This document shows positions 10,019-62,090 of a stretch of DNA of 64,000 nucleotides, piece by piece; positions within the stretch are counted from its first letter, which is position 1; every line of letters begins with the position of its first letter. Origin of the DNA: Dysidea avara (Eukaryota; Porifera; Demospongiae; Dictyoceratida; Dysideidae). A program made the position numbers and the translations under genes. The stretch lies in NCBI RefSeq assembly GCF_963678975.1, contig NC_089276.1:17241272-17305271 (forward strand). Direction: 5' to 3'. The notes beneath the pieces were generated by a model, which saw only the letters and a program-made list of their open reading frames with translations, did no database searches and had not been told where the DNA came from.

Positions 10019-10085
10019 AAGTGGCATTACAGACAGGATGTTATCCGTAACACGGAACTAATATACTATTAGAAACGGAAATTAA

Positions 10086-11013
10086 CCTGTCTATACAGTC
10101 TATAGTGACTAACCTGTCTATACAATCTATAGTGACTAACCTGTCTATACGGTCTATAGTGACTAACCTGTCTATAGTGACTAAGCTGTCTATACAGTCT
10201 ATAGTGACTAAGCTGTCTATACAGTCTATAGTCACTAACCTGTCTATACAGTCTATAGTGATTAACCTGTCTATAGTGACTAAGCTGTCTATACAGTCTA
10301 TAGTCACTAACCTGTCTATACAGTCTATAGTCACTAACCTGTCTATACAGTCTATAGTCACTAACCTGTCTATACAGTCTATATAGTCACTAACCTGTCT
10401 ATACAGTCTATAGTCACTAACCTGTCTATACAGTCCATATAGTGACTAACCTGTCTATACAGTCTATAGTGACTAACCTGTCTATATAGTCTATAGTGAC
10501 TAACCTGTCTATACAGTCTATAGTGGCTAATCTGTCTATATAGTCTATAGTTACTAAGCTGTCTACATAGTCTATAGTGACTAACCTGTCTATATAGTCT
10601 ATAGTGACTAACATGTCTATATAGTCTATAGTAACTAACCTGTCAGTCTATAGTGACTAACCTGTCTATATATAGTCTATAGTGACTAACCAGTCTATAC
10701 AGTCTATAGTGACTAACCTGTCTATATAGTCTATAGTGACTAACCTGTCTATACAGTCTATAGTGACTAACCTGTATATACAATCTATAGTGACTAACCT
10801 GTCTATATAGTCTATAGTGACTAACCTGTCTATACAGTCTATAGTGACTAACCTGTCTATATATAGTCTATAGTGACTAACCTGTCTATATAGTCTATAG
10901 TAACTAACCTGTCAGTCTATAGTGACTAACCTGTCTATACAGTCTATAGTGACTAACCTGTCTACACAGTCTATATAGTGACTAACCTGTCTATACAGTC
11001 TATAGTGACTAAC
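10086..11013. repeat. 27-bp satellite, left array
   Basis: About 34 tandem units of consensus GACTAACCTGTCTATACAG plus TCTATAGT, with small length variants (TATATA insertions and short units). Direct spacing measured at 27 bp. Confidence 0.92.
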
Positions 11014-12060
11014 CTATAGTCACTATAGACTGTATAGACAGGTTAGTCACTATAGACTATATAGACAGGTTAGTCACTATAGACTGTATAGACAGGTTAG
11101 ACAGGTTAGTCACTATAGACTGTATAGACAGGTTAGTCACTATAGATTGTATAGACATGTTAGTCACTATAGACTATATAGACAGGTTAGTCACTATAGA
11201 CTGTATAGACAGGTTAGTCACTATAGACTGTATAGACAGGTTAGTCACTATAGACTGTATAGACAGGTTAGTCACTATAGACTGTATAGACAGGTTAGTC
11301 ACTATAGACTGTATAGACAGGTTAGTCACTATATAGACTGTATAGACAGGTTAGTCACTATAGACTGTATAGACTGGTTAGTCACTATAGACAATATAGA
11401 CAGTTTAGTCACTATAGATTGTATAGACAGGTCAGTCACTATAGACTATATAGACAGGTTAGTCACTATAGACTATATAGACAGGTTAGTCACTATAGAT
11501 TGTATAGACAGGTTAGTCACTATAGATTGTATAGACAGATTAGTTACTGTAGACTATTTAGACAGTTTAGTCACTATAGACTATATAGACAGGATAGTCA
11601 CTGTAGACTATATAGACAGGTTAGTCACTGTAGACTATATAGACAGGTTAGTCACTGCAGACTGTATAGACAGCTTAGTCACTGTAGACTGTATAGACAG
11701 GTTAGTCACTATAGATTATATAGACAGGTTAGTCACTATAGATTGTATAGACAGATTAGTCACTGTAGACTATATAGACAGGTTAGTCACTATATATACT
11801 ATATAGACAGGTTAGTCACTATAGACTGTATAGACAGATTAGTCACTGTAGACTATATAGACAGGTTAGTCACTATATACTATATAGACAGGTTAGTCAC
11901 TATAGACTGTATAGACAGATTAGTCACTGTAGACTATATAGACAGGTTAGTCACTATAGACTATATAGACAGGTTAGTCACTATAGACTTTATAGACAGG
12001 TTAGTCACTATAGACTGTATAGACAGGTTAGTCAATATAGACTCTATAGAGAGGCTATAG
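11014..12060. repeat. 27-bp satellite, right array (inverted)
   Basis: The complement of the left array: ACTATAGACTGTATAGACAG plus GTTAGTC, about 38 units. Variant units (TGTAGACTATATAGACAG) cluster between 11,530 and 11,960, which suggests local amplification after the inversion formed. Confidence 0.92.
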
Positions 12061-12159
12061 TCTCTATACACAAGGTGGTTAGAATTATTAGTATACTAGT
12101 AAAATCCCATTATCCGTGTTACGGATAACATCCTGTCTCTAATGGCTGCTCACCCGGTA

Positions 12160-12800
12160 CCTCGTACTCCCGCGATGAAAGTGCCAAAAGTTGATCGCTT
12201 TGTCCTCGATCATCTAAACCAACGCTTCCCGAGGTCACGTGATGCCGAACTTGGCACGATACAAGTGGCGTTGTTGCGATGTGCTGGGCCCCTCTCGTGT
12301 CTGTGGTCGGAATGAATTGATAACGATCTGTTGAAGGATGAGGATTCTATGATAAACGTTCATGATGCGCTAAGCGTTGTCCAGCACACTTTAGTGCTGT
12401 TGGGGAATGCCAACGAACTAGTCTCCCAGACAAGAAGATGCAACATCCTCCGGTCTGTTGACCAAGGTCTGGAGAAGTATGGTAAGGAGCCCCCCACTAA
12501 TAGTGAAGAATTCTTGTTTGGGAAAGAGTTTTTCCCCAAGCTGAAAGCGACAGTGGAGTCTGATAAGACGTTGGCACAAGTGGTTCAAATATCCCACCGC
12601 TATCAGCCATATGACCAGAAGAGCCGCCAGTCCACATTGGGTCGCAGTAAGAAACAGTTTTTTCGACCAGGCCCTACCGGCAATTTGGGGTCCGGCAGGG
12701 CAATGTTCCCCCATCCAACAAGCAGCCTTACAAGCCATACCATCAGTACCCCCATCCTCAGAAGCAGTCCACTTTCCAGGCCCACAAACACTCGGGGAGA
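12160..12800 (+). pseudogene. DIRS gag, 3' part
   Basis: Continues gag in one frame: KVPKVDRFVLDHLNQRFPRS, then GPLSCLWSE, an in-frame TGA at 12,313-12,315, then VQHTLVLLGNANELVSQTRR and a basic tail (RSKKQFFRPGPTGN). The stop is internal to the conserved region, so this copy is dead. The frame overlaps the start of the RT frame, which is normal for DIRS elements. The end near 12,800 is an estimate. Confidence 0.75.
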
Positions 12801-14901
12801 TTGGAAAAGTCCTGAACAACTTACCCCTACCACATACCTCTTTTCAAGCACTCAATTTGAATCTGCACCTTCTGCCTCGACATACACTAACACCAGTAGC
12901 AGGAAGGGCTGCCTTGTTCCTAGAGAACTGGGCCTGCCTGACCAAAGATCCTTGGGTGCTATCCACCATCAGAGGGTATCAGATACCCCTAGAGTGTTTG
13001 CCAGAGCAGCACAGGTCCACCATCACAGTCAGCAGGGAACAACAATCAGTTCTGCAGGAGGAAGTGTCCAAACTGAGGGAGAAAGGGGCAGTTCACCCAG
13101 TGCAGCAGTCAGAAGCTCACATAATCAGTCCGATCTTTGTCGTCCCCAAAAGCGGCGGAGGTTGGAGACTGATTATAGACCTGAGATACCTGAACTCCCA
13201 TATCACTTCAAGATGGAGGGCCTGTACATGCTACCAAGCATCATCAGTCAGGGGTGGTTCATGGTGAAATTGGACCTAAAGGATGCGTACTTAACCATCC
13301 CTGTGGCCCAAGAATCTTGGAACCTTCTAACCTTCCAAGCAGGTCCACCACACAACTTGATGCAGTTCCAGTGCCTCCCATTCGGGCTTTATACCGCACC
13401 ATTCACCTTTTCAAAAGTTACAAAGCCTGCAACCCAGTTCCTACGTCAGTTAGGCATACATCTAATTATTTATCTAGACGATTTGTTACTGGCAGCTCCT
13501 ACCAAAGATCAACTATTGGTGGACCTTTCAACAGCCATATGGTTGCTTACCAGTCTAGGGTTTCTAATAAATATCCCAAAGTCCATCACAGCCCCCACCT
13601 GTCATCTAGAGTTTCTGGGGTTCATAGTGGACACAGACAACATGGTAATTTCTCTCCCAGCACACAAGTTGCACTGTATCCAGAAGGAAGCATCTCATCT
13701 TCTTTCTCTGGACAGAATTCCAATGAGGACTCTGGCTTGCTTCATTGGGACACTGGTAGCAACCAAACCAGCTGTATGGACAGGCCCTCTCCATTATCGT
13801 GCCTTACAGGATATGAAGATTCGATCACTTCGTCAACACCCTCACTACCAGGATTCTGTGAGCCTGTCGAAGGAGGCACGGGTAGACCTTCAGTGGTGGT
13901 GCTCGGAGCTGCCTTCCCACTGCTCAGCCCCAATATGGAAACCAGAGGCCTCAACAGTGATCGAGTCAGATGCCTCCAAGTTGGGCTGGGGGGCAGTCTG
14001 CCAAGGGGTACCAACTGGTGGCAGGTGGACACTAGAGGAGACCAAGTTCCACATCAATTATTTGGAGCTCAAAGCAATGTTTCTGGCCTTGCAGTCCTAT
14101 CTGAAGGACAAAACCGATATAGCAGTACTGGTCAGGTCAGACAATCGCACTGCAATAGCTTATTTGAACAAGCTTGGCAGTCCGTTGAGATCCCAACTGT
14201 GTCAGTTGGCCCTGGAGATTTGGGAGTGGTGCCTCCTACATCGGATTACACCACATGCAGAGTATCTGGCAGGGAAGGACAATGTCTTGGCAGACTGGGA
14301 GTCTCGCCACCACGACAGCAGCGATTGGCAACTCCTACCATCAGTCTTCGATGCTGTCCACCTCCTCCTTGGTCCTTTTACAATAGACCTATTTGCGAGC
14401 AGAACGAATGTTCAGCTGCCAGATTACTACAGCTGGAGACCAGACCCACAGGCAAGAGTGGTAGATGCCTTTTCAACATCTTGGTCGCAAGACCAGCCTT
14501 ATCTCTTCCCTCCCTTCAACCTGATTGGCAGAGCACTGTCGAAGATTTGCCTGGAAGAGGTAGACTATGCTTGTCTAATAGCCCCAACTTGGCCAGCTCA
14601 GGTGTGGTACTCCCAGGTATTGAGAATGTTAGTGAGGAATCCTATTCTACTCCCCATGGAACAGGATTTGCTCCTGAGTCCAGATCTGAAGCCCCATCCT
14701 CTAATCCAGGAGAATCGGATGTCTTTAGCCGCATGGCCTGTCTCAGGCAAGCTTTCTCAACACAAGGATTTTCTGAAAGAGTTACAGAACTGCTCCTGCA
14801 CTCCTGGAGATCTAACACCCATGCAGCATAGAATTCAGCCTGGTCTAAGTGGTGTGGCTGGTGTGCTGGAAGGCACATTAATCCACTTTCAGCATCTTTA
14901 G
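12611..14901 (+). pseudogene. DIRS reverse transcriptase, RNase H and methyltransferase-like domain
   Basis: The RT start is in frame 2 (12,611-13,205: LFLENWACLTKDPWVLSTI, FVVPKSGGGWRLIIDLRYLN). The rest is in frame 1 from about 13,200 (HFKMEGLYMLPSIISQGW, LDLKDAYLTIPV, YLDD at 13,471-13,482), so a small indel near 13,200 splits the RT. RNase H follows with ESDASKLGWGAVCQG, ELKAMFLAL and SDNRTAIAYLNK. The methyltransferase-like domain is IDLFASRTNVQLPDYYSW and PYLFPPFNLIG. The frame ends IHFQHL at 14,901. The protein copies the element RNA into DNA. The large alternative frame at 13,254-14,690 is a shadow. Confidence 0.9.
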
Positions 14902-15746
14902 GAAATGTGCTAGAGTTCCTTGCAGACCAATTTGATTTAGGCTTACAATACCGTTCACTTAACACATTACGCTCTGCAATCTCAACTTCTCACCCACAAT
15001 TAGATAACGTTAATGTGGGAAGCCATCCTTTAGTGTCTAGGTTACTAAAGGGCATGTTCAATGCCAGGCCACCAGCTCCTCGCCTTAGTGTGTCATGGGA
15101 TGTAGCTGTAGTTGTCGAGTACTTTAGAAGCTGCCCTTCAGAAGGTCTCTCAACTCTGGAGCTGGGCAGGAAGGTGGCAACGTTAATGGCACTAGCTAAT
15201 GCAAGCAGGTGTTCAGACCTAGCAGCCCTGGACAGGGATCATTTGAGATGGACACCCACTGGGGCCCAATTTACAGTAGTTCGGCTGACTAAGACTCGTA
15301 CCCCAGGTCCCCCTAGGACAGTACACTATTCTTCTCTGCCAGAGGATGCTGACGTATGTCCAGTTACTTCCCTTCAATTATATCTCTCCAGAACATCAGA
15401 ACAAGCAGCTTCAATAACTTCACCTAAGCCAGTATTCTTGACTTCAAAGAGGCCATTTAGAAGAGCTCGTCCAGGAACTTTGGGTCACTGGATTAAACAC
15501 AGCTTGGGAAAGGCAGGCATTGATACTGAGCAGTTTACAGCCCATTCCACCAGAAGTGCCAGTTCTTCACGAGCTCGGGCTAAAGGAGTCCCTGTTGCTG
15601 AGATTCTCAAGGTGGCAAATTGGTCTTCAAGAAGTACCTTTGAGAGATTCTATTACAGAAGTGAAGGGTCTTCTGAATTTACTAGAGTTGTTCTATCAGG
15701 ACCCTCTAGCAGGTATGATTTGTGCTTTAAACGTACCACTAGTTAG
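14690..15746 (+). pseudogene. DIRS tyrosine recombinase
   Basis: The N-terminal core-binding part (LRQAFSTQGFSERVTELLLH, SAWSKWCGWC, NPLSASLGNVLEFLADQF) and the catalytic part with HSTRSASSSRARAKGV, the W of ANWSSRSTFERF and the nucleophile Tyr (YYR) are in one frame. It overlaps the end of the RT frame. A TAG at 14,829-14,831, inside the core-binding domain, interrupts it; the apparent start at 14,907 is only a GTG after that stop. The enzyme integrates the circular DIRS DNA. The stop codon at 15,744-15,746 lies inside the internal complementary region. Confidence 0.88.
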
Positions 15747-26560: not shown

Positions 26561-29500
26561 TCACAAGTTATTCTGTAGGGAGTTCAGCTGCAAACAGTTA
26601 ATCTTATAGACAGTTCAGCAAGAAGCAAGTCACCATGTGGAGAGTTAAGCAAATATATCACTATAGAGATTCAGAACATTACAAGTCACACTGAAGAAAG
26701 TTCAGCTATAAACAAGTCATGCACCCTGTAGAGAATTCAGCTACAATTAAGTCACTCTCTAGAGAATTTAGCTACACAGAATTCAGCTACACACAAGTCA
26801 CCGTGGAGAGAGTTCAACTACAAACAAATTACCCTTTAGAGAGATCAGCTACAAACAAAACACTTTGCAGAGTGTTCAGCTACAACAAATCAACCTTTAG
26901 AGCGATCAGCAATGAACAAATCAACACAATTCTACCTGTAGAGAGATAAGCTAGAAACAAATCACCCTGTAGAGAGTTCAGCTACAAAAAATCACCCTGT
27001 AGAGACATCAGCTAGAAACTAGACACAATGTAAGGAGTTCAGCTACAAGCAATCACCCTGTAGAGAGTTCAGCTAAAACAAATCAACCTGCAGAGAGATC
27101 AGCTACAAACAAATCACCTTATAGACAGTTCAGCTACAAACAAATTACCCTGTAGAGAGATCGGCTACAAACAAATCAACCTGCATAGAGATCAGCTACA
27201 CACAAATCAACTTGTAGAGAGATCAGCTATAAACAAATCACCCTGTAGAGAGATCAGCTAGAAACTACACACAATGTAAGGAGTTCAGCTACAAATAAAT
27301 CACCCTGTAGAGAGTTCGGCTACAAATAAATCAACCTGCAGAGAGATCAGCTACAAACAAATCACCTTATAGACAGTTCAGCTACAAACAAATTACCTTG
27401 TAGAGAGATCGGCTACAAACAAATCAACCTGCATAGAGATCAGCTACACACAAATCAACTTGTAGAGAGATCAGCTATAAACAAATCACCCTGTAGAGAG
27501 ATCAGCTAGAAACTACACACAATGTAAGGAGTTCAGCTACAAATAAATCACCCTGTAGAGAGTTCGGCTACAAATAAATCAACCTGCAGAGAGATCAGCT
27601 ACAAACAAATCACCTTATAGACAGTTCAGCTACAAACAAATTACCTTGTAGAGAGATCGGCTACAAACAAATCAACCTGCATAGAGATCAGCTACACACA
27701 AATCAACTTGTAGAGAGATCAGCTATAAACAAATCACCCTGTAGAGAGATCAGCTAGAAACTACACACAATGTAAGGAGTTCAGCTACAAATAAATCACC
27801 CTGTAGAGAGTTCGGCTACAAATAAATCAACCTGCAGAGAGATCAGCTACAAACAAATCACCTTATAGACAGTTCAGCTACAAACAAATTACCTTGTAGA
27901 GAGATCGGCTACAAACAAATCAACCTGCAGAGAGATCAGCTACACACAATTCAACTTGTAGAGAGATCAGCTACAAACAAATAACCCTGTAGAGAGATCA
28001 GCTACAAACTAGACACAATGTAAGGAGTTCAGCTACAAGCAAATAACTCTGTAAAGAGTTCAGCTACAAACAAACCAACCTGTAGAGCGATCAGCTAGAA
28101 ACAAATCACCCTGAAGAGAGGTCAGCTACAAAAAATCACCCTGTAGAGATATCAGCTAGAAACAAATCACCCTGAAGAGAGGTCAGTTACAAAAAATCAC
28201 CTTGTAGAGAGATCAACTACAAACAAAACACTTTGCAGAGAGTTCAGCTACAAACAAATCAACCTGTAGAGAGATCATCTAGAAACAAATCAACCTGCAG
28301 AGAGATCAGCTACAAACAAATCAGCTTGTAGAGAGATCAGTTACACACAAATCAACCTGTAGAGAGATAAGCTAGAAATAAATCACCCTGTAGAGAGTTC
28401 AGCTACAAGCAAAACACCCTGTAGAGAGTTCAGCAACAAAGAAACCACCATGTAGAGAGTTCAGCTAAAACAAATCAATCTGCAGAGAGATCAGCTACAA
28501 ACAAATCACCTTATAGATAGTTCAGCTACAAACAAATTACCTTGTAGAGAGATCGGCTACAAACAAATCACCCTGCAGAGAGATCAGCTACACACAAATC
28601 AACTTGTATAGAGATCAGCTACAAACAAATCACCTTGCAGAGAGATCAGCTACAAACTAGACACAATGTAAGGAGTTCAGCTACAAGCAAATTACCCTGT
28701 AGATAGTTCATCCATAAACAAATCAACTTGTAGAGCAATCAGCTAGAAACAAATCACCCTGAAGAGAGGTCAGCTACACAAAATCACCCTGTAGAGAGAT
28801 CAGCTAGAAACAAATCACCCTGAAGAGAGGTCAGCTACAAACAAAACACTTTGCAGAGAGTTCAACTACAAACAAATCAACTTTTAGAGCGATCAGCAAC
28901 AAACAAATCAACTTGTAGAGAGATCAACTAGAAACAAATCAACCTGCAGCGAGATCAGCTACAAACAAATCAGCTTGTAGAGAGATCAGTCACACACAAA
29001 TCAACATGTAGAGAGATAAGCTAGAAATAAATCACCCTGTAGAGAGTTCAGCTACAAGCAAAACACCCTGTAGAGAGTTCAGCAACAAAGAAACCACCAT
29101 GTAGAGAGTTCAGCTGCAAACAAATCACCTTATAGAGAGTTCAGCTACAAACAAATTACCCTGTAGAGAGATCGGCTACAAACAAATCAACCTGTAGAGA
29201 GATCAGCTAGAAACTAAACACAATGTAAGGAGTTCAGCTACAAGTAAATCACCCTGTAGAGAGTTCAGCTAAAACAAATCAACCTGCAGAGAGATCAGCT
29301 ACAAACAAATCACCTTATAGACAGTTCAGCTACAAACAAATTACCTTGTAGAGAGATCGGCTACAAATTAATCAACCTGCAGAGAGATCAGCTACACTCA
29401 AATAAACTTGTAGAGAGATCAGCTACAAACAAATCACCATGTAGAGAGATCAGTTAGAAACTAGACACAATGTAAGAAGTTCAGCTACAAGCAAATCACC

Positions 29501-31300
29501 CTTTAGTGAGTTCAGCTACAAACAAATCAACCTGCAGTGAGATCACCTACAAAAAAGCACCTTGTACAGAGTTCAGCTACAAACAAATTACCCTGTAGAT
29601 AGATCGGCTACAAACAAATCAACCTGTAGAAAGATCAGCTACACACAAATCAACTTGTAGAGAGATCAGCTACAAACAAATCACCCTGTAGAGAGATCAG
29701 CTAGAAACTAGACACAATGTAAGGAGTTCAGCTACAAGTAAATCACCCTGTAGAGAGCTAAAACAAATCAACCTGCAGAGAGATCAGCTACAAATAAATC
29801 ACCTTATAGACAGTTCAGCTACAAAAAAAATTACCTTGTAGAGAGATCAGCTACAAATTAACCAACCTGCAGAGAGATCAGCTACAAACTTGTAGAGAGA
29901 TCAGCTACAACAAATCACCCTGTAGAGAGATCAGCTAGAAACTAGACACAATGCAAGGAGTTCAGTTACAAGCAAATCACCCTTTAGTAAGTTCAACTAC
30001 AAACAAATCAACCTGCAGTGAGATCACCCACAAAATGCACTTGTACAGAGTTCAGTTACAAACAAATTACCTTGTAGAGAGATCAGGTAGAAGAATTCAC
30101 CTCGTAGAGAGTTCAGCAACAAAGAAAACACCATGTAGAGAGTTCAGCTGCAAACAAATCACCCAGTAGAAAGATCAGCTAGAAGAAGTTACCTTGTAGA
30201 GAGTTCAGTTACAAAGAAACCATCATATAGAGAGTTCAGCTACAAAGAAATTACCCCGTAGAGAGTTCAGTTAGAAGAAGTCACCTTGTAAAGAGTTCAG
30301 CTACAAAGAAACCATCATGTACAGAGTTCAGCTACAAAGAAACCACCATGTAGAGTGCTTAGCTGCAAAAATTCACCTGTAGAGAGTTCAGCTAGAAACA
30401 AATCACCCTGTAGAGAGATCAGCTAGAAGAGGTCAGTTCAGCTACAAAGAAACCACCACATAAAGAGTTCAGCTACAAATAAATCCCCCTGTAGAGGGAT
30501 CAGCTAGAAGACGTCACCTTGTAGAGAGTTCAACTACAAAGAAACCATCATGCAGAGAGTTCAGTTACAAACAAGTCACCCTGTAGAGAGATCAGCTAGA
30601 AGAAGTTACCTTGTAGATAGTTCAGCTACAAACAATTCACCCTGTAGAAAGATCAGCTAGAAGAAGTCACCTTGTAGAGTGTTCAGTTACAAAGAAACCA
30701 TCATGTAGAGAGTTCAGCTGCAAACAAGTCACTCTGTAGAGAGTTCAGCCTCAAATAAACCACCTTGTAGAGAATTCAACTACAACAAATCACCCTGTAG
30801 AGAAGAAGTTACCTTGTAGAGAGTTCAGCTACAAAGAAACCATCATGTAGGGAGTTCAGCTACAAAGAAACCACCATGTAGAGAGGTTAGCTGCAAACAA
30901 TTCACCTGTAGAGAGTTCAACTAGAAACAAATCACCCCGTAGAGAGATCAGCTGGACGAAGCCACCTTGTAGAGAATTCAGCTACAAAGAAACCATCATG
31001 TAGAGAGTTCAGCTGCAAACAAATCACCCTGTAGAGAGTTCAGCTACAAAAAATCACCCTGTAGAGAGTTCAGCTAGACGAAGTCACCTTATAGAGAGTT
31101 CAGCTACAAAGAAACCACTATGTAGAGAGTTTAGCAACAAACAAATCACCTGTAGAGAGTTCAGCTAGAAACAAATCACCTGTAGAGAGACCAGCTAGAA
31201 GAGGTCACCTTGTAGAGAGTTCAGCTACAAAGAAACCATCCTGTATATAGTTCAGCTACATTTCAAGTCACCCAGTAGAGAGATCAGCTGCAAAAAAATA
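26560..31300. repeat. 31-bp satellite with a 248-bp higher-order unit
   Basis: About 150 tandem copies of a 31-bp unit of the type AGCTACAAACAAATCACCC plus TGTAGAGAGATC. Between 27,083 and 27,900 a block of eight units recurs at exactly 248-bp spacing (TCAACCTGCA at 27,083, 27,331, 27,579 and 27,827) with almost no differences, so that part was amplified recently. The right third uses variants such as AAGAAACCATCATG. No spacers and no coding capacity. Confidence 0.93.
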
Positions 31301-31840
31301 TCCTGTGGGGAATAATGGGCATGTAATAAATATGTATATAATTTGTATAATTACTAATAAAATCAAAAATTATTGAAGTATTAAAATTCTTTTTTAAGTT
31401 CTTTTCTTCTTCCTTTGGTAAAGAAAAAAACACATGGGTTAAAAAAGCCCCAAAGCCATAGGCCGGCTTTGCAGTATACAAATACAAAAAGAAGTGATAT
31501 CTAATCAAAAACAGCCAAGCTGTAAAAAAAGGTGCGGTCCCCAAAAAGGCCATGGCGAAAAAAGATGCGAAATCCAAGGTGGCGGCCAAGAAATGGCTGT
31601 GATGGTAGGTTAATGGTTACATTTTAATAACGACAATTCAGGTGAATTTTGTGCCGCTTGGTCTTGGCACCAAATTCACCTGAATTTTTGTTATTAAAAT
31701 TTAACCATTAACCTACCATCACAGCCATTTCTTGGCCACCACCTTGGATTTCACATCTTTTTTCACCATGGCCTTTTTTGGGGCCGCACCTTTTTTTACA
31801 GCTTGGTTGTTTTTGATTAGATATAATATAACCCAAAAAC
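31300..31840. repeat. Palindrome attached to the 31-bp satellite
   Basis: Arms of about 165 bp meet near 31,663 and match at most positions: AACGACAATTCAGGTGAATT against AAATTCACCTGAATTTTTGT, and GCCAAGAAATGGCTGTGATG against its complement. The same palindrome follows the second satellite array at 62,100-62,585, so satellite and palindrome are parts of one repeat family. Confidence 0.88.
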
Positions 31841-43538: not shown

Positions 43539-43877
43539 AACAAGCACTAATAACTTACATATCATTGGGTCTACTGCAACGAAACAAAGATTTTCCAACT
43601 CCTCTTGAGCAGGCGAATAAGATGATAGGGTAAACCACCAATGTCCAACCACCATCGGTTCGGACGTGATTTTTCTTTAAACCTGCATAAACTCTTGCAT
43701 GCAAAATTTCAGACCTGCAGCTTTCTTCGTCTGGCTGCAGGAGCTGCAAAATGACCTGTCCAAATGTTCTCAATTCTCGGACAAAAATATCTATTATCGG
43801 TCGAGTGGCACTGCTCTTAATGCTTGAAGCTGATCACGTCTTTCTGTGCTTGATATGAAAGAGTAACTCTTATACTC

Positions 43878-44035
43878 TGTCACGGAAAAATCGGTCCGGG
43901 TAAAATTGGTCCGGCCGGACCAGTTTTGGAAGCTATAAGTGGTCAGGCCGGACCAAATTTAGTCTACCAAAATTGGTCCGGCTGGACCGATTTTGGTATC
44001 CAAAATTAGTCCGGCCTGACCAATTCTGGTCCGGC
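43878..44035. repeat. Ginger1-like left terminal inverted repeat
   Basis: TGTCACGGAAAAATCGGTCC start, then five variants of the self-complementary word GGTCCGGCCGGACC separated by AATTTTGG-type spacers. Pairs with 53,240-53,385. The subterminal palindromes are candidate transposase-binding sites. Confidence 0.88.
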
Positions 44036-45625
44036 CACGGGCTTGCTCAGTATATATAGGTGAGACTATACGCGCAATCGCGGACCGGCTTACATCATAG
44101 ACCTGGCCGCTTAGTGCGCGTGCCAGAGACGGCGGAGAAGGATAACTTGCAATGGTGTAGCTACCATGTAGGCAGGTGAGGCAAGTGCCTCACCAAAATT
44201 TTGGTAGTTGCATGACTGAGAAACAGCTCATTGAACACTTATATTAGCAATTAAATAATAGTATTGAAGCATTAGCATTTAACTTGTGATTTATAATTCA
44301 ACTTACCTCCTGTATGATTAGTAAGAGTCTATTCTAAAAGGGCTTCTGAGGATTAGAACAGAAATGGTCAAGTTAGATTGAGATCGACATACTCTAATAG
44401 AGCAGTCACCCTAATAAAGCAGTCACCCTTATAGAGTAGTTATACCCTATTAGAGCAGTCCCCCTAATAGTCATCCTATCCAGGGCGGTCGACGGGGGGG
44501 TGGGGAGGGGGGAACTGGGGCAAAATGCCCTGGGTCCCAGGCTCCAGGGGACCCCACTGTTCTACCATAGAAAGATCGAAATACTCTAATAGAACAGTCA
44601 GGCAAATTTTCAGTTGTAGTATAATTACTCTAGCAAGCTGTTAAAATTGTCTCAGATTCAATTTCAGAGATGTATTTTTCAAAAAAATTCTCAGTAGGGA
44701 ATAGAGTAACCACCAGTCCAATAAAATTATCAACAAAATGCTACTGAAAAATGCTACTGAAAACACTCTCAAATTCAATTTCAGAGGGTCTAATTTTCAA
44801 AACTCTCCTGTGGGAGCATGCCCCCAGACCCCTCTACATTAAAATTGGTATACTTCGCATGCAAAGCACACTAAGGTGTAATTACTGGTATAATAGGGCC
44901 CCATATTCTTTTTTTTGGCCCTGGCCTCTTGAATTCTTTCAGCAGCCCTGATCCTATCACAACAGTTGTAGCTTTGCTACACTGCTGAAATCACCCTCCA
45001 TGTAGTCTAACTTCAGATGACCTAACTTATGTCCACAGATCAGAGCCCCCTAGCTATTCTATAATAATATACATGTTAAAGTGTGTGGAGTGTACTCTAG
45101 TGCATGCATCATTTTAAGGCTACCATAAAGCAATGCCAAGTCTGCCTCAAATTTCTGGCTATGCCCTTTACTTGATGATGTTAATGTTTCAGATCACATG
45201 ATTATTAAGCTTCAGATCCATGATCATTAAGCTGTTTATGGAGCCTGCTAGCTAGCTACATATTCAGCCATGGATTATAGTTACATCGCACACTAGTTTT
45301 TCACTCACCATTGTAGCTATATAGCTATGCATACCAATTTTTAAAGTTGTGCCACATGCATAGCTATGTTGCTATTGTTTAGATGTTTTACTATTACAAA
45401 CTATATAGTTCTGTATGCATGTTCTTGCATAATTGTGACTTGAGCTATCACTTCAGCGGTGTTTTTTGGGGGAGGGGTGCATGCATGCATGGATTACTTT
45501 TATACCATCAATAGCATGTGTAAAATCAATGAACAGTTTGACTGTGATAAAGTTTTAAGATCATATGCAGCAGACAATAATAATAGTACAGCTGTAACCC
45601 TCAGGTACACAAAACAAACCACGTC
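44036..45625. other. 3' non-coding part of the Ginger1-like element
   Basis: No exon. 44,385-44,470 is a short tandem array of the 18-bp motif (CTCTAATAGAGCAGTCAC variants). 44,490-44,520 is G-rich. The rest is AT-rich without recognisable content. Confidence 0.5.
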
Positions 45626-45893
45626 TTACACATCTATAAAATGACTAGTTTTATTTATGCTAGAGAAGCATTCTAAGCAATGGAATGCTTTGCTCTTAAT
45701 ATCATCTAGTTTAACACCAGCACACTTTGTGTGGCTCCAGGATTTGCATTTATCACATTTTACCTGTGGTGGATAGCTATATATAACATAGAGTGTGCAT
45801 GGCCAAAGAACTCACTCACCCAATCATTATAATCTGGATGGCTTACACTGGTATCACCTGCTCCACACATCATACATCTTTCACGCATATCTG
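45626..45893 (-). CDS. PHD-finger exons of the Ginger1-like gene
   Basis: Exons 45,820-45,893 and 45,626-45,763 join in phase 0: DMRERCMMCGAGDTSVSH, then VKCDKCKSWSHTKCAG and FHCLECFSS, ending SHFIDV and TAA. C-x2-C, C-x2-C, W-x-H-x2-C, C-x2-C is the C4HC3 PHD pattern, with the usual Trp before His. It is at the very C-terminus. Confidence 0.87.
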
Positions 45894-46012
45894 CTACAGA
45901 ATGGAATTATAGTATACAAACTATATAGATGCATGTAGTTGTATTTACTTGAATATGACAGCAAAGTGATTCCAATATTCTCACGGGCTTTGTCAACATT
46001 TAAACATCTTAA

Positions 46013-46753
46013 GGTTACGGGATACTGTAAACCCCACATGTACACTATTGATCATTTTTCATGATTAGGGGTTTGATTTTTCTTAATGCATTGTTATCAA
46101 ATATTTATGCATTCTTAACTTCTCATAAATCGACATGGAATTCAAATGTTGTTATGGAAACATGAGTTGTCCCCATGCCAAACAGTGAAAACTGTGAACC
46201 AAAAATCAGACCAATGAAGAACCATGAGAACTTACTAACAATTCTAAGGTTTGAAGAACATCACTTGTGAGGGACTGACAAGAGGATTTGTGAATAATGT
46301 GTATAGTTGCTGAAATATGACTACAATATGGCCTAAAGCAAGACACTGTGGTCACAAAATTAATTTTTAAATTGATATCACAAGCACTAGAAACATTATT
46401 TCTAACAAATGGCTCCATCAGGACCTAGACAAGAAGCCAGACTAGTAGTCTGTTTATACAAAATGTTAACAACTAGTTTGACAGTCCTGATTTTTGGTTC
46501 AGGAAAATATCGCCATTAGTCAGCAAAACTACGCATGCGCTTACAGGTGCGCCAGTTGCTAAGTGTGTTGTATCTATGTTATCTTGTACTGTTACGTGTG
46601 TTTTCTTGTACCTTGTAACTGTCCAGTCAGCACACTATTATTCTCCCAACAATTTAAGCCTGTTACCAGCTGATACAAAACACAACAACACCAAGCCCGC
46701 CTTAATTACGTAATAAAATTTTTTGTTTGACAGTCGCTCACTATCCCGTAACC
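46013..46753. mobile_element. TTAA-flanked MITE at a Ginger1 exon edge
   Basis: Flanked by TTAA (46,009-46,012 and 46,754-46,757), ends GGTTACGGGATACTG and GGTTACGGGATAGTG. About 740 bp without coding capacity. If it is removed, a perfect acceptor (AACGCAG at 46,758-46,764) is followed in phase 0 by LRCLNVDKARENIG, joining the Ulp1 Cys exon to the PHD exons. The insertion therefore separates an acceptor from its exon. Confidence 0.88.
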
Positions 46754-46848
46754 TTAACTGCGTTTTATTGATTTTCCCTGAATTTAGCTGTTCAGCCATC
46801 TAAACATGTACAGTACAAGGCGGAAATGACACTAGCTTTAATGTATAC

Positions 46849-47596
46849 CTTTAAGCAGTAAACTCCGCAGCTACAACCATCATATTGAACACGTTTTTCC
46901 AATCTAAATTTCTCTATGTTGATCTTATCTGTCCCCAAGAAGTTGTTTCTTGTCTTGAAATATTTCCTATGTATAGTATAAAAAACTGTCGTTCATTATA
47001 ATGGAAAACTAACTTCAATGCACCAAAAGTCCCACGAGCAGAATGGCTTGATCTAGATGGGTTCAGATGGTAAAAGATTTTTGCTTCCAGATCTATTGCC
47101 TACATGATTTATGACAAATGCACATATGTATATAGCTGCATGCACTACAAATTATGAACTTACAACGAATATCCAATGATTGGTGCCTTGGTTGTAGGTT
47201 GTACAAACCTGCAAGCATCTTCTTTGTAGTTAATACCTCCTACATGTGACATAATGTATATAGTTGTAGTGGACTTTTGTATGAGTTACAATATACCTTT
47301 GACAATAAATGTGAAGAAATGTTGACAGCAGCACGGTTAATTATAGCTGTCAATGAAAATGTTCCAATGATATAACAATTCCCGTGTATGTTTACTATCA
47401 GTCGAAGGTATCCATTGACAATCTTTTAGTTGGACATGTCAAATAATCAACATGACTCTATATTATACCTAACCTCATCATTGATATAAGTTCTAGGCTT
47501 CAATGTATGGAAACTTCCATGGTGTATGGTAAAACTACCAATTCTTGCCTTCACTACATGACATGACTGCCCTTTTAAAATGCTTTCCAATTGTTT
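46849..47596 (-). CDS. Ulp1-type cysteine protease exons of the Ginger1-like gene
   Basis: Exons 47,474-47,596, 47,297-47,422, 47,164-47,208, 47,014-47,099 and 46,849-46,966 have matching phases. They encode KPRTYINDE and IVNGYLRLIVNIHG (the substrate-groove start of C48 peptidases), TNHWIFV with the catalytic His, AIDLEAKIFYHLNP with the likely Asp, and QYDGCSCGVY with the oxyanion Gln and catalytic Cys. All triad positions look intact. The domain follows the integrase in the same gene. Confidence 0.87.
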
Positions 47597-47762
47597 CTGT
47601 TATTAAAGCAAGCACATACAACAATATGCAATATATACAAGAGCATTATAATAAACTTGTATGCATATACATAAGCTAGAAACTACGTATTAGACATGAA
47701 ATTTAATGTTAAAGTATACATAACTTTTTAGTTGTTGTTGGAAATGTAACACCAATAGATAC

Positions 47763-48421
47763 CTTAGAACTAGTTGAGATAGCTGTAGTGGTAGACTTGT
47801 CTGGGACTGCTGTAGTTGTAGGCATAGCTGTAGAGGTAGAGTTCACTGGGATGGTCGTAGTTTTAGCTATACTGGTGGTAGAATTTACTGGGATGGTAGT
47901 AGTGGTAGAATTGATCAGGATACCAGTAGTGACATGGCCATAAGCATCACACTGTAATTTTTATGGTTACAATAGCAATAATGTGAATGATCATAATTAT
48001 GAATACCTTTGATTTCTCTTGCACATCCATTTCAACATTATCTGTCTAAATAACGAAAATAAAATTGGTTGAGTGAAGTTGAATTCTAGAGCATGTATAC
48101 TGTGTGCATATTAGCTACTATACATAAAGTTGGCAATGGTTATGAAGGGGTAGACTGGCTTGTATAACAATTACGCATACCTTGAGAAGTTTACGTTTTC
48201 TCTTCCTAGGATTTTGTTGCCTTGCCACATTGTCATCATCTGAAAATTGAAGTTTTCTTTTACATTTACTGATGCCTGTTGGTAAATCCAATATTAATGC
48301 AACATGTTCCTTTCCTAGGTAAGGTGATACTTAATGCATGCATCATAATACCACACATTTACCTTGCGATGCTTCACAGCTAACACTTTTGTCGAAAGCA
48401 GGAATTTTGGATATGGGCTTA
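47763..48421 (-). CDS. Linker exons: basic and Thr-rich segments
   Basis: Exons 48,363-48,421, 48,181-48,275, 48,007-48,045 and 47,763-47,951. They encode KRKLQFSDDDN, then RQQNPRKRKRKLLK (likely nuclear localisation), TDNVEMDVQEKSK and repeats of the TTTIPVNSTT type. Low-complexity linker between GPY/F and protease. The first of these exons does not match the phase left by the exon at 48,870-49,389, so its border or that exon needs correction. Confidence 0.65.
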
Positions 48422-48869
48422 CTACATGATGTACAAACAATGGGGGTATAAACATATTCTCAATATTCCATTATCTCAGCATACATACATACATATGCCA
48501 GTTCAATCACAAAAGTATTCAGACAAGATGAATTGAAGCTTACACTTGAAGAATATTAAAATTTACAGGAACTTTTCAGGAGCTGTTCAGGAAAGTCTAT
48601 ATAGGAAATTCTGCGCTGTACTGAAACTTTCTTGTTCAGGAAATTTTAAAATTCTTTGAGTGTTATATTCACAAAATTATACAGAACTTCAGTCAAGTAC
48701 TCTAATCATATTATACTAAAAAGTACAGCTGGCATCAAAATAGAGCAGTTATAATTAGTTGTACATGCTCCAATATTTAAGGGCTGAATAATTGAAGTCC
48801 TACTATGTATACCCCCAGATTAAGTTATCACTACATAATTATATATATGCACACTGCAAAATCGTGTAC

Positions 48870-49389
48870 CTTTAGAACACACCGCTGGAAATTGTACAAT
48901 AGGTGATAGGAGCTTTCTATCTTTAAAGAACACTGGGAGAAATCCACCTGGTTTAATAGGTGAGCTAGCATCTGCTGGTTCATTGTAATTTCTGCCCACT
49001 TCATACAAAGAGTGATCCAGTGAGAGCCCATGTTGGTCAATAAATCCAATATTTCCTTGAGATATAGTATTGTGAATGATAGAATACGAGCCATCATGAT
49101 TTCCTCGAGCTCCTTGCATTAAACTTCTAGAGCAGATAGAATTGTCCTTTCTCCCCACTTCATAGAAAGAGCGATCTAGGGAGAGGCTGTGTTGGTCAAT
49201 AAATCCAATATTTCCTTGAGATATAGTATTGTGAATGATAGAATACGAGCCATCATGGTTTCCTCGAGCTCCTTGCACTGACTTTCCAGAGCAGACAGAA
49301 TTACTGTTTACAGATTGATTGTCAGATTGAGATTGGTTACTGTCACGATTCTTTAAAGAGCTGTCACTGTCTTGTTCGGAATCCGGTCC
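48870..49389 (-). CDS. Linker exon with a 53-residue tandem duplication
   Basis: The exon encodes a Ser/Asn/Gln-rich start (DSEQDSDSSLKNRDSNQSQS), then two copies of a 53-residue unit containing GARGNHDGSYSIIHNTI and GFIDQHSLSLDRSFYEVG / GFIDQHGLSLDHSLYEVG. The DNA repeat is 159 bp (CCTCGAGCTCCTTG at 49,262 and 49,103). High identity of the copies implies a recent event. Unit function unknown; I recognise no family. Confidence 0.85.
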
Positions 49390-49450
49390 CTATATACATA
49401 CATGCACATTAAACAAAAAGTATGCACAACCCTATATTATAGCAACTTAC

Positions 49451-50661
49451 ATAATGTATAGGAGATAAGTACTGCTTAAGGTGGGCACCGTTTATCCTAG
49501 TGATCTCATATGAACTATCTGCTGCCTTCAAAGAGTACAGTCCTCGACCCAAGCATTTGGTAATGGTGTAGGGACCTCTCCACTTGTAATCTAACTTTCC
49601 TCCCTTCCTTTTCTTTCGATTAAAATCTTTTACCAACATGTTAGCTCCAACTGAGTAACAACCTATGCAAACAAGTGAAGCAAAATGGATCATCTAGAAT
49701 GCAACAATTGTAGCCCACCTGGTTTAAAATGTCTTTTATCATATTGCAATTTCTGCTTCAGCTGTGCTTTTGCTATGTTATCCTTAGCTGCTTCAAGCAC
49801 CATTTCATGCACTTCTCTTGCTTCATCGAAAGGGTAATCTCCAGCTTTATTGTAGTCATCTAAAAGTACTTCTGTATCCTTCTTTTCTACATCAATATCA
49901 ATTGGAAGCAACGGCTTCCTTCCAAACATCAACTCGAATGGTGTATAATTAGTTGAGTCATGCCGTGCAGTATTGTATGCGAAAACGCATGTGTCAAGGT
50001 ACGCTTCCCAGGAATTTTTTTTTCCTCTACTAACTTTACAAGCATGCTTTGCAGAGTTTGATTAAATCTTTCATCCAGACCATTTGCCTATTATTATATA
50101 GACAAATAAACATAGCTAACTACATGAATGGAGTTACCTGTGGATGATAAGCTGTCGTTAAAAGGTGTTTAATGTTCAACTTCCTCATCAGATCAGAATT
50201 TAATTTGTTATTAAATTCTGACCCTAGATCACTTGTTACAAGCTTGGGAATACCCATTCTCATACATGTATAAAACCAGACAAAATAATACATGCAAACT
50301 GTACATAAAACAAATACATATTGAGCATATTACCTATTATATTGCACGTATGTATACCTTAAACAAGCAGCTGCAAACTTCAACAGCACTTTTATTAGGT
50401 GTTGCAAATGCTTCAACCCACTTTGTACAATAGTCACTGGTAGTCAAGATATATCTATTTCCTATAAAATAATGTGCCATGTAACTACACAGCTATTATA
50501 AATAAGCAGCCGGCTGTACCTGCAGGGGATTTATAAGCAATAGGTCCTATAAAGTCAATTCCTATATGGTGCCATGGTGACTTCACTGGTACTGGATACA
50601 TCTTTGGAGATACAATATCTAGCTTCCTGTTCATTCTTTGGCAAACATCACATCGTTTCAC
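49451..50661 (-). CDS. Integrase catalytic core and GPY/F exons
   Basis: Exons 50,520-50,661, 50,358-50,461, 50,138 to about 50,270, 49,719-50,087 and 49,451-49,662. Visible residues: first Asp in IGIDFIGP, second Asp in TSDLGSEF, Glu in LDERFNQ (D, D, E order of rve integrases), TPFELMFGRKPLLPIDIDVE, and the C-terminal GPYTITKCLGRGLYSL with INGAHLKQYLSP. In exon 49,719-50,087 the frame changes at a run of nine A (minus strand, near 50,018-50,026): before it LQSMLVKLVEE, after it SWEAYLDTCVFAYNTARHD. Ten A would restore it. Confidence 0.87.
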
Positions 50662-51442
50662 CTATAATAATACAAGTTTGACTGGCTTTGTAAGATACTG
50701 AAGACTGATTCCATGATTTCTAGATATACAAGTTCAAGATATAGCTAGCTATCTGCATACATATACACTGCATGTAGTCCACTATACATACACTTTTACT
50801 GTATCATGTGCATAATAGAGATTGCCTATATATGTTTAAAATCCTGATAGAATACACAGCTTAACAGCTACAACCTTATAATAATCAACCATAATGCAAC
50901 CACTAAAGAAGCTTTATAAGTAAATTTGGAATGAGTTGTTGTATATTATCATCATTAAGCACATCATATGGCACAAATGCTATGTGTGAGATATTTCAAG
51001 TAGGTACTATAGGCTTTGAATGGATAATTATAGTTATTGTGAAGCGGTTTAACATGCTAATTTGTTAGACTCTTGTTTCAGCAATCAAAATATTGTACCC
51101 TATAGTATTAGAAGTAGCTAAATGGGTACTCACCACCTCTTCTATATCCTTTGTCATGCCATACCACGTGAACCTTTCTGTTACCCTTGACATAGTTTTC
51201 TTATAGCCCAAATGGCCAGATGTAACATCACTGTGACAAGCTTTGATGATTCTTTGCTGCTCTTCTGTATTTCTAATGTACCTCACTTGAACATCACTCT
51301 ATATAGTATACATAAACATGTGAAAAAATAGTATAGCTGTTTCATTAATAAATTCACTGTATAGCTATATACTGCACATGCATGCACAATAGCTATTATG
51401 ATCTATAATATCTCGCTACACTGTGAGCTAACTGTTTAATTA

Positions 51443-52519
51443 CAGGAGCGGATCCAGAAGGGGGGCTATGGGGGCTGAAGCCCTCCTTCACTTTTAAATT
51501 GTACTTGATCAGGACCACAATGAATTTTTTTGTCTTAGCATAATAGTGTCACTAATAATAAAAATACACCTTAGAACTATCTTTCCAAGGCATTATCATC
51601 GGATTTGTGTTAAATATTATGCAACAAGGGCCTGAATCAGCCATTGGCAGTGCACAAGATTGAGATACTCTAATAGAGCAGTCACATAACTACTCTAATA
51701 GAACATGCATTCAGCAGAAACATAAAAGTTGGTTCTGTTATGGAATTTATTCAAATCTATAAGATGTACCTACACATAATGAAGTGCATTGGTCTATTTC
51801 AAAAGCCTTCAATAACTAGTATAGTATAATTGCCGTATAAATAGAAATATACCTTAAGTGGACACATGTACCACAGAAAATGCTCTCAGATTCTATCTCA
51901 AATCTCAAAATTTTCCAGTAGGGCTGGGCATGCTACAAGACCTTTCTGATAGTCTGTGCTATAGCTAATGATTATAAAATCTTTTAAATTACAAATACCT
52001 ATAATCGGCTATAATAATACAACCCCTACCTTTGAAGTACCAGACAAGTCTATTTCAGTTCTACAAAGCTATAGGGCAGATAAAGGGAAAAAATATTGCC
52101 CTGCATATATAGGATGGAAGATTTATGCACCCTCTTACATTGTCTAAAATTTATGATATATAAGTAAGCATTATATGCTGAAATCAGTGTTACCAAATTG
52201 CAGTGTTTTGGCATGTATTTTTCAAAATTTTCCTGTGGGAGGCATGCCTCCAGATGATGCACCCTCTTACAATATCCAAATTTTAACAAAAGGTATAGGA
52301 TATAATGATATAATTAAAAGGACACTGAAATAGTTACAAACATGCATGCAGAAAGGATTTTATGCAATGTTACCAAATTGCAGTATTATGGCATCTATTT
52401 TTCAAATTTTCCTGGGGGGGGGGGGGGGGGGCATGTCCCCAGCTCCAGCATGCGAGTGTCATCAGACAAATACTTCAAGTTAGCTCCCCTCCTTTATAAA
52501 TCCTATAGGTCCGCCTCTG
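51443..52519. mobile_element. hAT-like element in Ginger1 intron 1
   Basis: Ends CAGGAGCGGATCCAG and, inverted, CAGAGGCGGACCTATAG, flanked by the 5-bp duplication AATTA (51,438-51,442 and 52,520-52,524). It ends only 11 bp from the exon-1 donor at 52,530. Interior non-coding, with a run of 15 G at 52,415 and two copies of the 18-bp motif near 51,665 and 51,695. Confidence 0.65.
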
Positions 52520-52746
52520 AATTAACTAACCGTTCCTTTCCTTTTCTTATTTAAGTACATCTCTCCATCAATGATAGTAAACTTTGAGGCTTTCTTCCTG
52601 ATGATTCTTTTACAGTTCTCAGAAGTTCCGTCCGCATAACATTTCTCTGTGACGTAGAGGTAAACTTTATCCAAGAGCTCTTCTTCGCCAGTATCCGCCA
52701 TTATGTCATCACCTTAGAGCCAGCTCGCGAGATAGAATATTAGCTA

Positions 52747-52997
52747 CACAGTAAAAATAAACTAGTGAACGTCACTACTAAATGTAGTGAACGTCACTAC
52801 TAATGTCTGCCACAATGCTCACTATTTTTGTGTAGTGACGTTCACTACTAATTTTGTAGTGAATGTCACTACATTGACAACCAAGTAGTGACGTTCACTG
52901 CAAAAAGTAGTGACGTTCACTACAAAAAGTAGTGAACGTCACTACTAAAAGTAGTGAGTATTGTGGCAGAGCAATTCACTACTAAATTTTTACAGTG
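52747..52997. mobile_element. TA-flanked palindromic MITE with GTGAACGTCAC units
   Basis: 251 bp between TA dinucleotides. Ends CACAGTAAAAAT and CACTGTAAAAAT, resembling mariner/Tc1-type MITEs. The interior repeats TAGTGAACGTCACTA about eight times, itself a palindrome. It sits 46 bp upstream of the Ginger1 start codon, within the likely promoter region. Confidence 0.75.
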
Positions 52998-53239
52998 TAG
53001 CTATATAGAGTCCGCTCTCTTCGCTGAGTATACGTTGCAGCTAAAAGGAAATGCCGGCCACTTCGCTAGAATTTCGCTGAACACGTGTGCACATACTGCA
53101 CCATAGTGCACTTTTTTTATCTCGAGAAATAGCTAACTATCATTCCTCAAAAGGCATCAAAGTGAGCATCAAAGCAAGCATCAAAGCTATGGACATCGAG
53201 TCAAGTGTGTGCCGACTGTTATAGCTACATTTGGCCAGC

Positions 53240-53385
53240 GAATTTGCATTTAACCCAGCCCGGACCAGTTTTGGTCAGGGCGGACCAATTTTGGATGCCA
53301 AAACTGGTCCGGACGGACCAAATTACGTCAACCAAAATTGGTCCGGCCGGACCGATTTTTTCCCCGGACCGATTTTGGCGTTACA
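53240..53385. repeat. Ginger1-like right terminal inverted repeat
   Basis: Complementary to 43,878-44,035 in word order, ending CGATTTTGGCGTTACA. The inner part has GGACCAGTTTTGGTCAGGGC. Confidence 0.88.
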
Positions 53386-54651
53386 ACTCTCCAAATATAT
53401 GCAGATATTTGGCTTACTCCTTATTGACTGTGAATTACAAAGTTCCAAAGTCACCTCTGTTGTACAATCTTAAATTCTGCCACATGTGAAACTTGTGCAA
53501 ATCAAATAGTCACCTATATCGAATCCAAAGCTATTTTTTATGAACATTGAGAGCATCAGTTACCCTTCAATAGTAAATAGATACATGCACCTTAATTTTT
53601 GCCCAAATATATAGGCTTCTCTGACAATAGCAGCCTAGCTACTGCACCCAGCATACATACACACAATTCAAATCCATTTAAATGGGGTTTTGACTATCCC
53701 CTGTCTTAAAAATGTCAAAAGTTTCTCTGCAAAATGTCCAGGACATTAGCCAGATCGAAATACTCTAATAGGGCAGTCAATTACCCTAATATAATGGTCA
53801 GCCAATGTATTATCACATGTAATCAGTATTTAAGCATTGTGATCAACTAAATTCACATATTACCAGTCTTATTGAAGTGAATATACCTGAGAATGGCCCT
53901 TAGATTTCTAACTGTTCCAATTGTATAATACGTGACTGTTCTATTAGAGTGTTTCGATCTGGCTAATGTCCTGGACATTTTGGAGAGAAACTTTAGATAT
54001 TTTTAAGATAGGGGATAGTCAAAACCCCATTTAAGTGGATTTGAATTGTGTGTATGTGTGCTGGGTGCAGTAGCTAGGCTGCTATTGTCAGAGAATCCTA
54101 AATGCAATGTAGCTATTTGGGTAAAAATCAAGGTTCGGTAATCGTGCATGTACAGTATATATTTACTATTGAAGGGTAACCGATGCTCTCAGTGTTCATA
54201 AAAAATAGCTTTGGATTCGATATAGGTGACTATTTGATTTGCACGAGCTTCACATGCAACCGAATTTAAGATTGCACGACAGAGGTGACTTTGGAACTTT
54301 GTAATTCACAGCCAATAAGGAGTAAGCCAAATATCTGCATAAATTTGGAAAGTATAAGAGTTGCTCTTTCATATCAAGCACAAAAAGACTTGATCGGCTT
54401 CAAGCATTACAAGCAGTGCCACTTGACCGATAATACATATTTTTGTCTGAGAATTGAGAACATTCGGACAGGTCACTTTTGGAGCTCCTGCAGCCAGACG
54501 AAGAAAGCTGCAGGTCTGAAATTTTGCATACAAGAGTTTATGGCCTAGACCTCTCCAAAAGCATAGCAAGAGCAAAAGTTTTCTTTGCAGGTTTAAAGAA
54601 AAATTGCGTCTGAACCGATGGTGGTCAAACATTGGTGGCTTACTCTATCCA

Positions 54652-61410: not shown

Positions 61411-61417
61411 GATAAAA

Positions 61418-62090
61418 ACCACCATGTAGAGAGTTCGGCTGCAAACAAATCACCCTGTAAAAAATTCAGCTACAAACTAATCACCCTGTAGAAAGATCAG
61501 CTGGAAGAAGTCACCTTGTAGAGAGTTGAGCTACAAAGAAACCATTCTGTAAAGAGCTCAGCTGCAAAAAATCACCTATACAGAATTCAGCTACAAACAT
61601 ATCACCCTGTAGAGAGATCAGCTAGAAGAAATTACCTTGTAGATAGTTCAGCTACAAACAATTCACCCTGTACAGAGCTCAGTTAGAAGAAGTTTCCTTG
61701 TAGAGAGTTCAGCTACAAGCAAATCACTCTGTAGAAAGATCAGCTAGAAGAAGTCACCTTGTAGAGAGTTCAGCTACAAAGAAACCACCATGTAGAGAGT
61801 TCAGCTGCAAACAAATCACCTTGTAGAAAATTCAGCCACAAAAAAATTGCCCTGTAGAAAGATCAGTTAGAAGAAGTTACTTTGTAGAGAGTTCAGCTAC
61901 AAAGAAACCATTATGTAAAGAGCTCAGCTGCAAACAAATCACCTGTACAGAATTCAGCTACAAACACATCACCCTGTAGAGAGATCAGCTAGAAGAAGTT
62001 CATTCAGCTACAAACAATTCACCCTGTAGAGAGAGCAGTTAGAAGTCACCTTGTAGAGTGTTCAGTTACAAAGAAACCACCATGGAGAGT
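61418..62090. repeat. 31-bp satellite, second array
   Basis: About 22 units of the same family as 26,560-31,300 (GTAGAGAGTTCAGCTAC, AGAAGAAGTCACCTTG). No higher-order unit is visible. Confidence 0.92.

Follow-up and report, generated by a model that had tools for sequence, protein, structure and literature searches.

A Ginger1-like transposon in the sponge Dysidea avara and its preference for GNNC target sites

We analyzed a stretch of 64,000 nucleotides of the Dysidea avara genome (NCBI RefSeq assembly GCF_963678975.1, contig NC_089276.1, positions 17,241,272 to 17,305,271 of the forward strand), hereafter called the window. An element of 9508 bp at positions 43878-53385 is, with high probability, a Ginger1-kind DNA transposon that moves presumably by cut-and-paste and selects sites with G...C edges. 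Its domains, its position in an integrase tree, its TGTNR ends, and the 4-bp duplications agree with the Ginger1-like assignment made in a preliminary description of the window. In the host genome, the target preference is GNNC, leaning toward GRYC, and the ACTC that flanks the window copy is off-consensus.

Ends of the element

The inverted TGT...ACA ends, with ACTC on both sides, lie to the base where the preliminary description had placed them. In the window sequence, the left edge reads ACTC followed by TGTCACGGAAAAATCGGTCCGGG, and the right edge reads CCCCGGACCGATTTTGGCGTTACA followed by ACTC. Once reverse-complemented, the right end (TGTAACGCCAAAATCGGTCCGGG) pairs with the left end, with ACTC outside each, and the inverted 5′ ends, TGTCA and TGTAA, correspond to TGTNR on both sides. 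The terminal inverted repeats (TIRs) are imperfect and ~126-157 bp long, with a complementarity of 86% in the outermost 28-nt arms and 82% in the inner arms (43941-44034 and 53260-53353).

43874-43877, no strand: left 4-bp target duplication, ACTC
43878-44034, plus strand: left TIR, with ~33-bp subterminal units around GGTCCGGCCGGACC
53260-53385, minus strand: right TIR, with ~34-bp subterminal units
53386-53389, no strand: right 4-bp target duplication, ACTC

Local alignment of the two ends scored 103, whereas 300 random pairs drawn from the window averaged 18.6; this control is imperfect, as the window holds tandem arrays and the random maximum (229) exceeded 103. The sequence GGTCCGGNCGGACC, allowing up to two mismatches, matched 14 times in the window, every time within the two ends (0.12 expected), and both arms carry subterminal units of ~33-34 bp, centered on GGTCCGGCCGGACC. 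Chance does not account for the ends, since further copies in the genome begin and finish at the same end type, each with its own 4-bp duplication.

Target preference across the genome

Copies were collected from the host assembly (550.8 Mb, 108 contigs) by a TIR search, in which 40 of 274 candidates were scored, and by a right-end search, in which 40 of 375 were scored. An exact 19-base pattern matched 69 left ends, and the reversed control none. Seventy-five left flanks were read, 40 from the TIR search and 35 more from the 19-base pattern, and six were dropped as duplicates (at least 13 of 16 bases alike), which left 69 independent left flanks for counting. GNNC was present in 55 of these 69, with G as the first base in 62 and C as the last base in 62, against a background of 3.4% in the window and 3.9% in the fetched loci. 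In the center of the 55 GNNC flanks, RY occurred 26 times and YR 12 times, whereas RY makes up 24.5% of the GNNC words of the window (p = 0.0002); C at position 2 or G at position 3 was rare (11/138).

For 29 independent copies, flanks could be read at the left as well as the right end, and 26 of these copies had identical 4-bp flanks (22/24 and 4/5 in two sets). The matched duplications fit GNNC in 22 of 26 cases, the exceptions being GAAG, GGTA, GAAT, and ACTC. No right end was found for the copies L010 and L013. Other copies share the end type and, in most cases, carry matching 4 bp. The preliminary suggestion of a subgroup with another target preference is likewise supported genome-wide, except that the preferred target is GNNC. 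ACTC, found in only one of the 69 left flanks, was rejected as the preferred site.

Two copies, at G000:C2:38862856 and C2:38891624, have the same flanks in opposite orientation and lie 29 kb apart, which suggests an inverted segmental duplication.

Transposase gene

The long, intron-rich integrase gene reported in the preliminary description was recovered on the minus strand. In our hand-made model, it comprises about 20 exons from 52701 to 45651, with GT donors and AG acceptors nearly throughout. The start of exon 10 was moved by eye to 48314 because the homologs P0019 and P0071 keep the same segment order across parts of exons 6-10, and the start of exon 18 (46012) was set by eye from uninterrupted sister copies.

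52531-52701, minus strand: exon 1, start codon and YPYY-like segment (proline replaced by alanine)
51134-51298, minus strand: exon 2, H2C2 zinc-binding segment
50520-50661, minus strand: exon 3, last part of H2C2, then the first catalytic Asp (GIDFIGP)
50358-50461, minus strand: exon 4, integrase core
50138-50258, minus strand: exon 5, second catalytic Asp (TSDLGSEF), 5′ edge uncertain
49719-50087, minus strand: exon 6, catalytic Glu (NGLDERFNQ, DD35E spacing), with a frameshift at an A-run
49451-49662, minus strand: exon 7, GPY/F motif (WRGPYTI)
48870-49389, minus strand: exon 8, linker with two 159-bp direct repeats
48363-48421, minus strand: exon 9, 2-bp insertion relative to L009, L010, and L011
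48181-48314, minus strand: exon 10, start set by eye, frame as in the homolog P0019
47763-48045, minus strand: exons 11 and 12 (48045-48007 and 47951-47763)
46849-47596, minus strand: exons 13-17, Ulp1-like (Peptidase_C48) domain
45651-46012, minus strand: exons 18-20, remainder of the Ulp1-like part, PHD finger, and C-terminus

Pfam matches above cut-off were obtained with exon pieces for Integrase_H2C2 (3e-21), rve (4e-9), Peptidase_C48 (1e-5, 26.0 bits for a cut-off of 20.7), and PHD (4e-7, 30.5 bits for a cut-off of 24), and the SH3 part matched only below cut-off (0.015). The integrase core has DD35E spacing and is accompanied by a GPY motif. In the Ulp1 triad, His and Cys are conserved and Asp is not. 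The YPYY region can be aligned with five Ginger1-type relatives; its proline is Ala here, and some of the relatives also lack the proline. No reverse transcriptase (RT) or RNase H domain was detected by Pfam in the exon pieces and ten other frames, a set that does not include every frame.

The element had been called complete, which holds for its ends; the gene is damaged and two younger insertions lie inside it. These changes were read against three sister copies (L009, L010, and L011), stretches of which are 95-99% identical to the window element. At the exon 5 acceptor, 7 bp present in L009 and L011 are missing from the window copy, and exon 9 has 2 extra bp that all three sister copies lack. 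In all three copies that align there (the window copy, L009, and L011), the exon 6 A-run departs from the homologous frame. The larger of the two insertions lies right at the 5′ edge of exon 18, cutting this exon off from its likely splice acceptor, and L009 and L011 have a single TTAA at the same site. Without the two inserts, the element would measure about 8.5 kb. In view of the exon 6 frameshift, the lost acceptor, the 2-bp insertion, and the 741-bp insertion, the window copy is a damaged relic that is probably not autonomous and appears incapable of producing its own transposase in its present state.

46013-46753, no strand: nested 741-bp insertion whose ends read GGTTACGGGATA...TATCCCGTAACC, with a TTAA duplication, absent from L009, L010, and L011
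52746-52999, no strand: nested 254-bp insertion with GTAGTGAACGTCACTAC-type palindromic repeats, located upstream of the start codon and lacking in L009 and L011

One frame of the 741-bp insertion has a sub-threshold match to CEBP_ZZ in Pfam.

Relatives, phylogeny, and fold

A protein search returned 230 matches, and the best 120, which were listed, include proteins of Ephydatia, Amphimedon, Hydra, and Dysidea, together with a few others at 83-84% identity. Among ten relatives submitted to Pfam, Peptidase_C48 was above cut-off in P0008, P0028, and P0045, PHD was above cut-off in P0004 and below it in P0045, and OTU was found in P0038, P0081, and P0089. In a tree of 40 rows, the window protein joins P0016 (98/93) within a 17-row clade that includes proteins of Hydra and sponges (100/99), whereas 14 polyproteins bearing RT or RNase H domains are set apart at 100/100. 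The DDE tree therefore places the gene with Ginger1-type sponge and Hydra proteins and leaves the Gypsy polyproteins outside, Ginger1 type being judged here by C48, OTU, or PHD domains; in this limited sampling, the rows omit named Ginger1, Athila/Tat, other YPYY-bearing Gypsy, Ginger2, Polinton, and GIN1 references. Ten of the 37 inner branches are open, and P0106 (a long branch) and P0050, which have no RT or RNase H label, split off more deeply on the Ginger1 side.

The closest solved structures by sequence are the integrases of prototype foamy virus (PFV) and Ty3. A fold model of the Ephydatia relative P0001 (mean predicted local distance difference test score 79.6, predicted template modeling score (pTM) 0.54) likewise retrieved PFV intasome chains first and the Ty3 integrase next. 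In viral contigs, 11 loci turned up, all at 36% identity or less.

Short copies and other integrase families

A second, short subtype (L014-L047) has ends nearly the same as those of the window type. Where both ends were read, these copies mostly measure 1.6-3.4 kb, with two of about 6.1-6.3 kb. All ten short copies examined retain pieces of the integrase core, some of them with stops. At the extreme, L012, which has a window-type left end, spans 126 bp and consists of little beyond two fused ends, with GACC on both sides. We infer that these are short, internally deleted relatives moved in trans.

The 6.3-kb short-subtype copy L053 holds a 901-aa frame at 2824-5526 (left end first), apparently another nested element. 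A second intron-bearing family (P0071 type, family B) is present at G000:C6:11794164-11798356, C11:25557400-25560451, C1:2651621-2655145, and C12:3831705-3838914; P0071, itself a Dysidea avara protein, matches the G000:C6 copy exon by exon at 86-100%. The copies on C6 and C1 lie at most about 2.5 kb from TGTCACGGAAAAATCGGTC ends (19 bases) flanked by GGTC and GGCT. Among the 88 candidates that were scored, of 492, further integrase families appear at ~33 places with 39-47% and ~15 places with 54-56% identity to P0071, many of the scores being identical.

Proposed mechanism

The integrase-type transposase would bind the repeated GGTCCGGCCGGACC units in the ends. Joining of the CA-3′ ends to the target is staggered by 4 bp, as the matching 4-bp duplications show, and the sites chosen are those whose two edge base pairs read G...C (GNNC, leaning GRYC). 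The near-fixed, symmetric edges show that site selection depends on the outermost base pairs of the duplication. By analogy with PFV, the C-terminal SH3/GPY part of the integrase probably recognizes these edge bases; in PFV, Arg329 of the C-terminal domain makes contact with bases at either edge of the site (PMC4422553).

Another candidate determinant is the alpha-2 residue, here the Ser of SDLGSEF, which aligns with HIV-1 Ser119 and PFV Ala188. We favor the C-terminal part because the alpha-2 residue varies among the relatives compared (S, T, R, G, N, or K) and, in retroviruses, acts three bases outside the joint (PMC4422553), where the deviation in our flanks is weak (position -3, p = 0.01, uncorrected).

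Alternative explanations

Several observations weigh against a Ginger1-kind transposon that selects G...C-edged sites. The flanks do not match in three of the 29 two-sided copies (L009, GTAC/GATC; L044, GGTC/GTCC; L121 with L085, GACC/ATCC), and they also differ in L034 (GAAT/TCAC), which had been dropped as a duplicate. Partnerless right ends show GNNC in only 13 of 19 cases, in a set where L066 and L067 share one flank, L078 is a left-type end, and L068 (AACC) stands outside the count. Window-type ends are less strict than those of the short subtype, with GNNC in 9/15 vs 46/54, and in the first set of window-type matched duplications GNNC occurred in one of three, L116 with L067 (GCCC) being added later as a fourth. 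Weak deviations are seen outside the 4 bp, for example at position -7 (p = 0.0004, uncorrected). Moreover, no intact transposase was found in this genome, all three copies that align over exon 6 being out of frame, and the fold evidence comes from the relative P0001, at a pTM of 0.54, rather than from the window protein. Finally, no excision events were seen among the copies read; Ginger1 excision is called unknown in PMC2836005.

The looser window-type flanks could mean that the G...C preference is mainly that of the short subtype, perhaps moved by another integrase, and that the window family is less selective. The presence of other integrase families in the genome is in line with this idea. 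However, GNNC in 9 of 15 window-type flanks is still far above the ~4% background (p = 8e-10), position 1 is G in 13 of the 15, the two subtypes differ little in their ends, and an identical 19-base end occurs next to two P0071-like copies, so that we regard this explanation as unlikely. It is far less probable that the element is a Gypsy-type long terminal repeat (LTR) retrotransposon or its remnant, in which the integrase would be left over from a polyprotein and the inverted repeats would be due to chance. The integrase does resemble those of PFV and Ty3 in sequence and fold, and Gypsy LTRs likewise start with TGTNR (PMC2836005), but the ends are inverted, not direct, and are accompanied by matching duplications in many copies. 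In addition, the frames given to Pfam contain no RT or RNase H, the gene includes Ulp1-like and PHD parts, and the 14 RT- or RNase H-bearing polyproteins, chosen without Athila/Tat and other YPYY-bearing Gypsy lineages, fall apart from it in the tree at 100/100. With no LTRs, no RT in the pieces covered, and this tree placement, the LTR retrotransposon was rejected.

The least probable explanation is a standard Ginger1 with CCGG-type targeting, in which ACTC and the other sites would result from drift after insertion. The domain set, the ends, and the length of the duplication agree with the description in PMC2836005. Nevertheless, CCGG, CCGT, and ACGG are found in none of the 69 independent left flanks, which led us to reject standard targeting, and drift after insertion would not leave 26 of 29 flank pairs identical. 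A Ginger1-kind transposon with its own G...C preference thus accounts best for the copies.

Other features of the window

At 12316-15743, a reverse transcriptase frame (RVT_1, 4.6e-15) precedes one for a tyrosine recombinase (PF00589, 5e-7); we take this retroelement to be DIRS-like. Long tandem arrays with 27-bp and ~31-bp units occupy 10083-12068, 26783-31306, and 61416-62089, and the 31-bp unit is present at two places 30 kb apart.

Comparison with known systems

The sponge element shares with Ginger2/TDD a Gypsy-type integrase, TGTNR ends, and 4-bp duplications (5-bp in TDD). However, Ginger2/TDD elements are reported to target AT-rich RTATAY sites and are devoid of GPY/F and YPYY, whereas the sponge element has a GPY motif and GNNC flanks. 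Similar to the Gypsy (Metaviridae) integrases and the PFV and Ty3 intasomes, it combines H2C2, DDE, and an SH3-like C-terminal fold with staggered strand transfer. It differs from Gypsy by its inverted ends, the absence of LTRs and of any RT in the pieces covered, and its separate branch in the tree.

The closest likeness is to Ginger1, with which it has in common the TGTNR ends, a 4-bp duplication (given as "4 bp for Ginger1" in the part seen of PMC10045372), TIRs within 40-270 bp, H2C2, DDE, and GPY/F motifs, and introns; Ginger1 proteins end in an OTU or Ulp1 protease and at times a PHD finger, and the C-terminal Ulp1 and PHD parts are also those of Ginger1-9_HM. In PMC2836005 (Bao, Kapitonov, Jurka 2010), Ginger1 elements are described as 2.6-7 kb long with 0-4 introns, and the targets of 112 Hydra copies as CCGG (75%) and CCGT/ACGG (24%). 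By contrast, the sponge element measures 9.5 kb, has about 20 exons in our hand-made model, and targets GNNC, leaning GRYC; the proline of its YPYY segment is replaced, the Ulp1 aspartate is not kept, and its host is a sponge. We found no report of a sponge Ginger1 in the titles and abstract openings of the literature on Ginger and sponges or Porifera, Repbase Reports being outside this coverage, and the main text of the Imagin paper (PMC12863088), as far as available, does not use the terms TSD, target site, or CCGG. PMC2836005 and PMC12863088 discuss Ginger1 as kin of the source of LTR-retrotransposon integrases and as an origin of domesticated host genes. The Ginger1 kind is therefore already known, and the target rule, host group, and gene structure make the sponge element a variant; as CCGG and CCGT occur in 0/69 left flanks, it is not a standard member, although it behaves like Ginger1 and falls within that clade.

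We lean toward the idea that, within one transposase clade, the edge bases have flipped from C..G (CCGG, Hydra) to G..C (GNNC, sponge), with a center that went from the flexible YR of CCGG to leaning RY. If so, Ginger1 would amount to a set of natural specificity mutants, and comparison and domain swap could single out the residues that read target bases. Retroviral integrases have weak, palindromic site preferences, and with preferences this weak such a comparison would hardly be possible. Natural copies could then reveal how integrases pick their insertion sites. Ginger1 thereby gains a sponge lineage with a clear target rule, and a transposase related to retroviral integrases, whose edge bases are nearly fixed yet differ between two animal lineages, would offer a direct means of asking which residues read the target.

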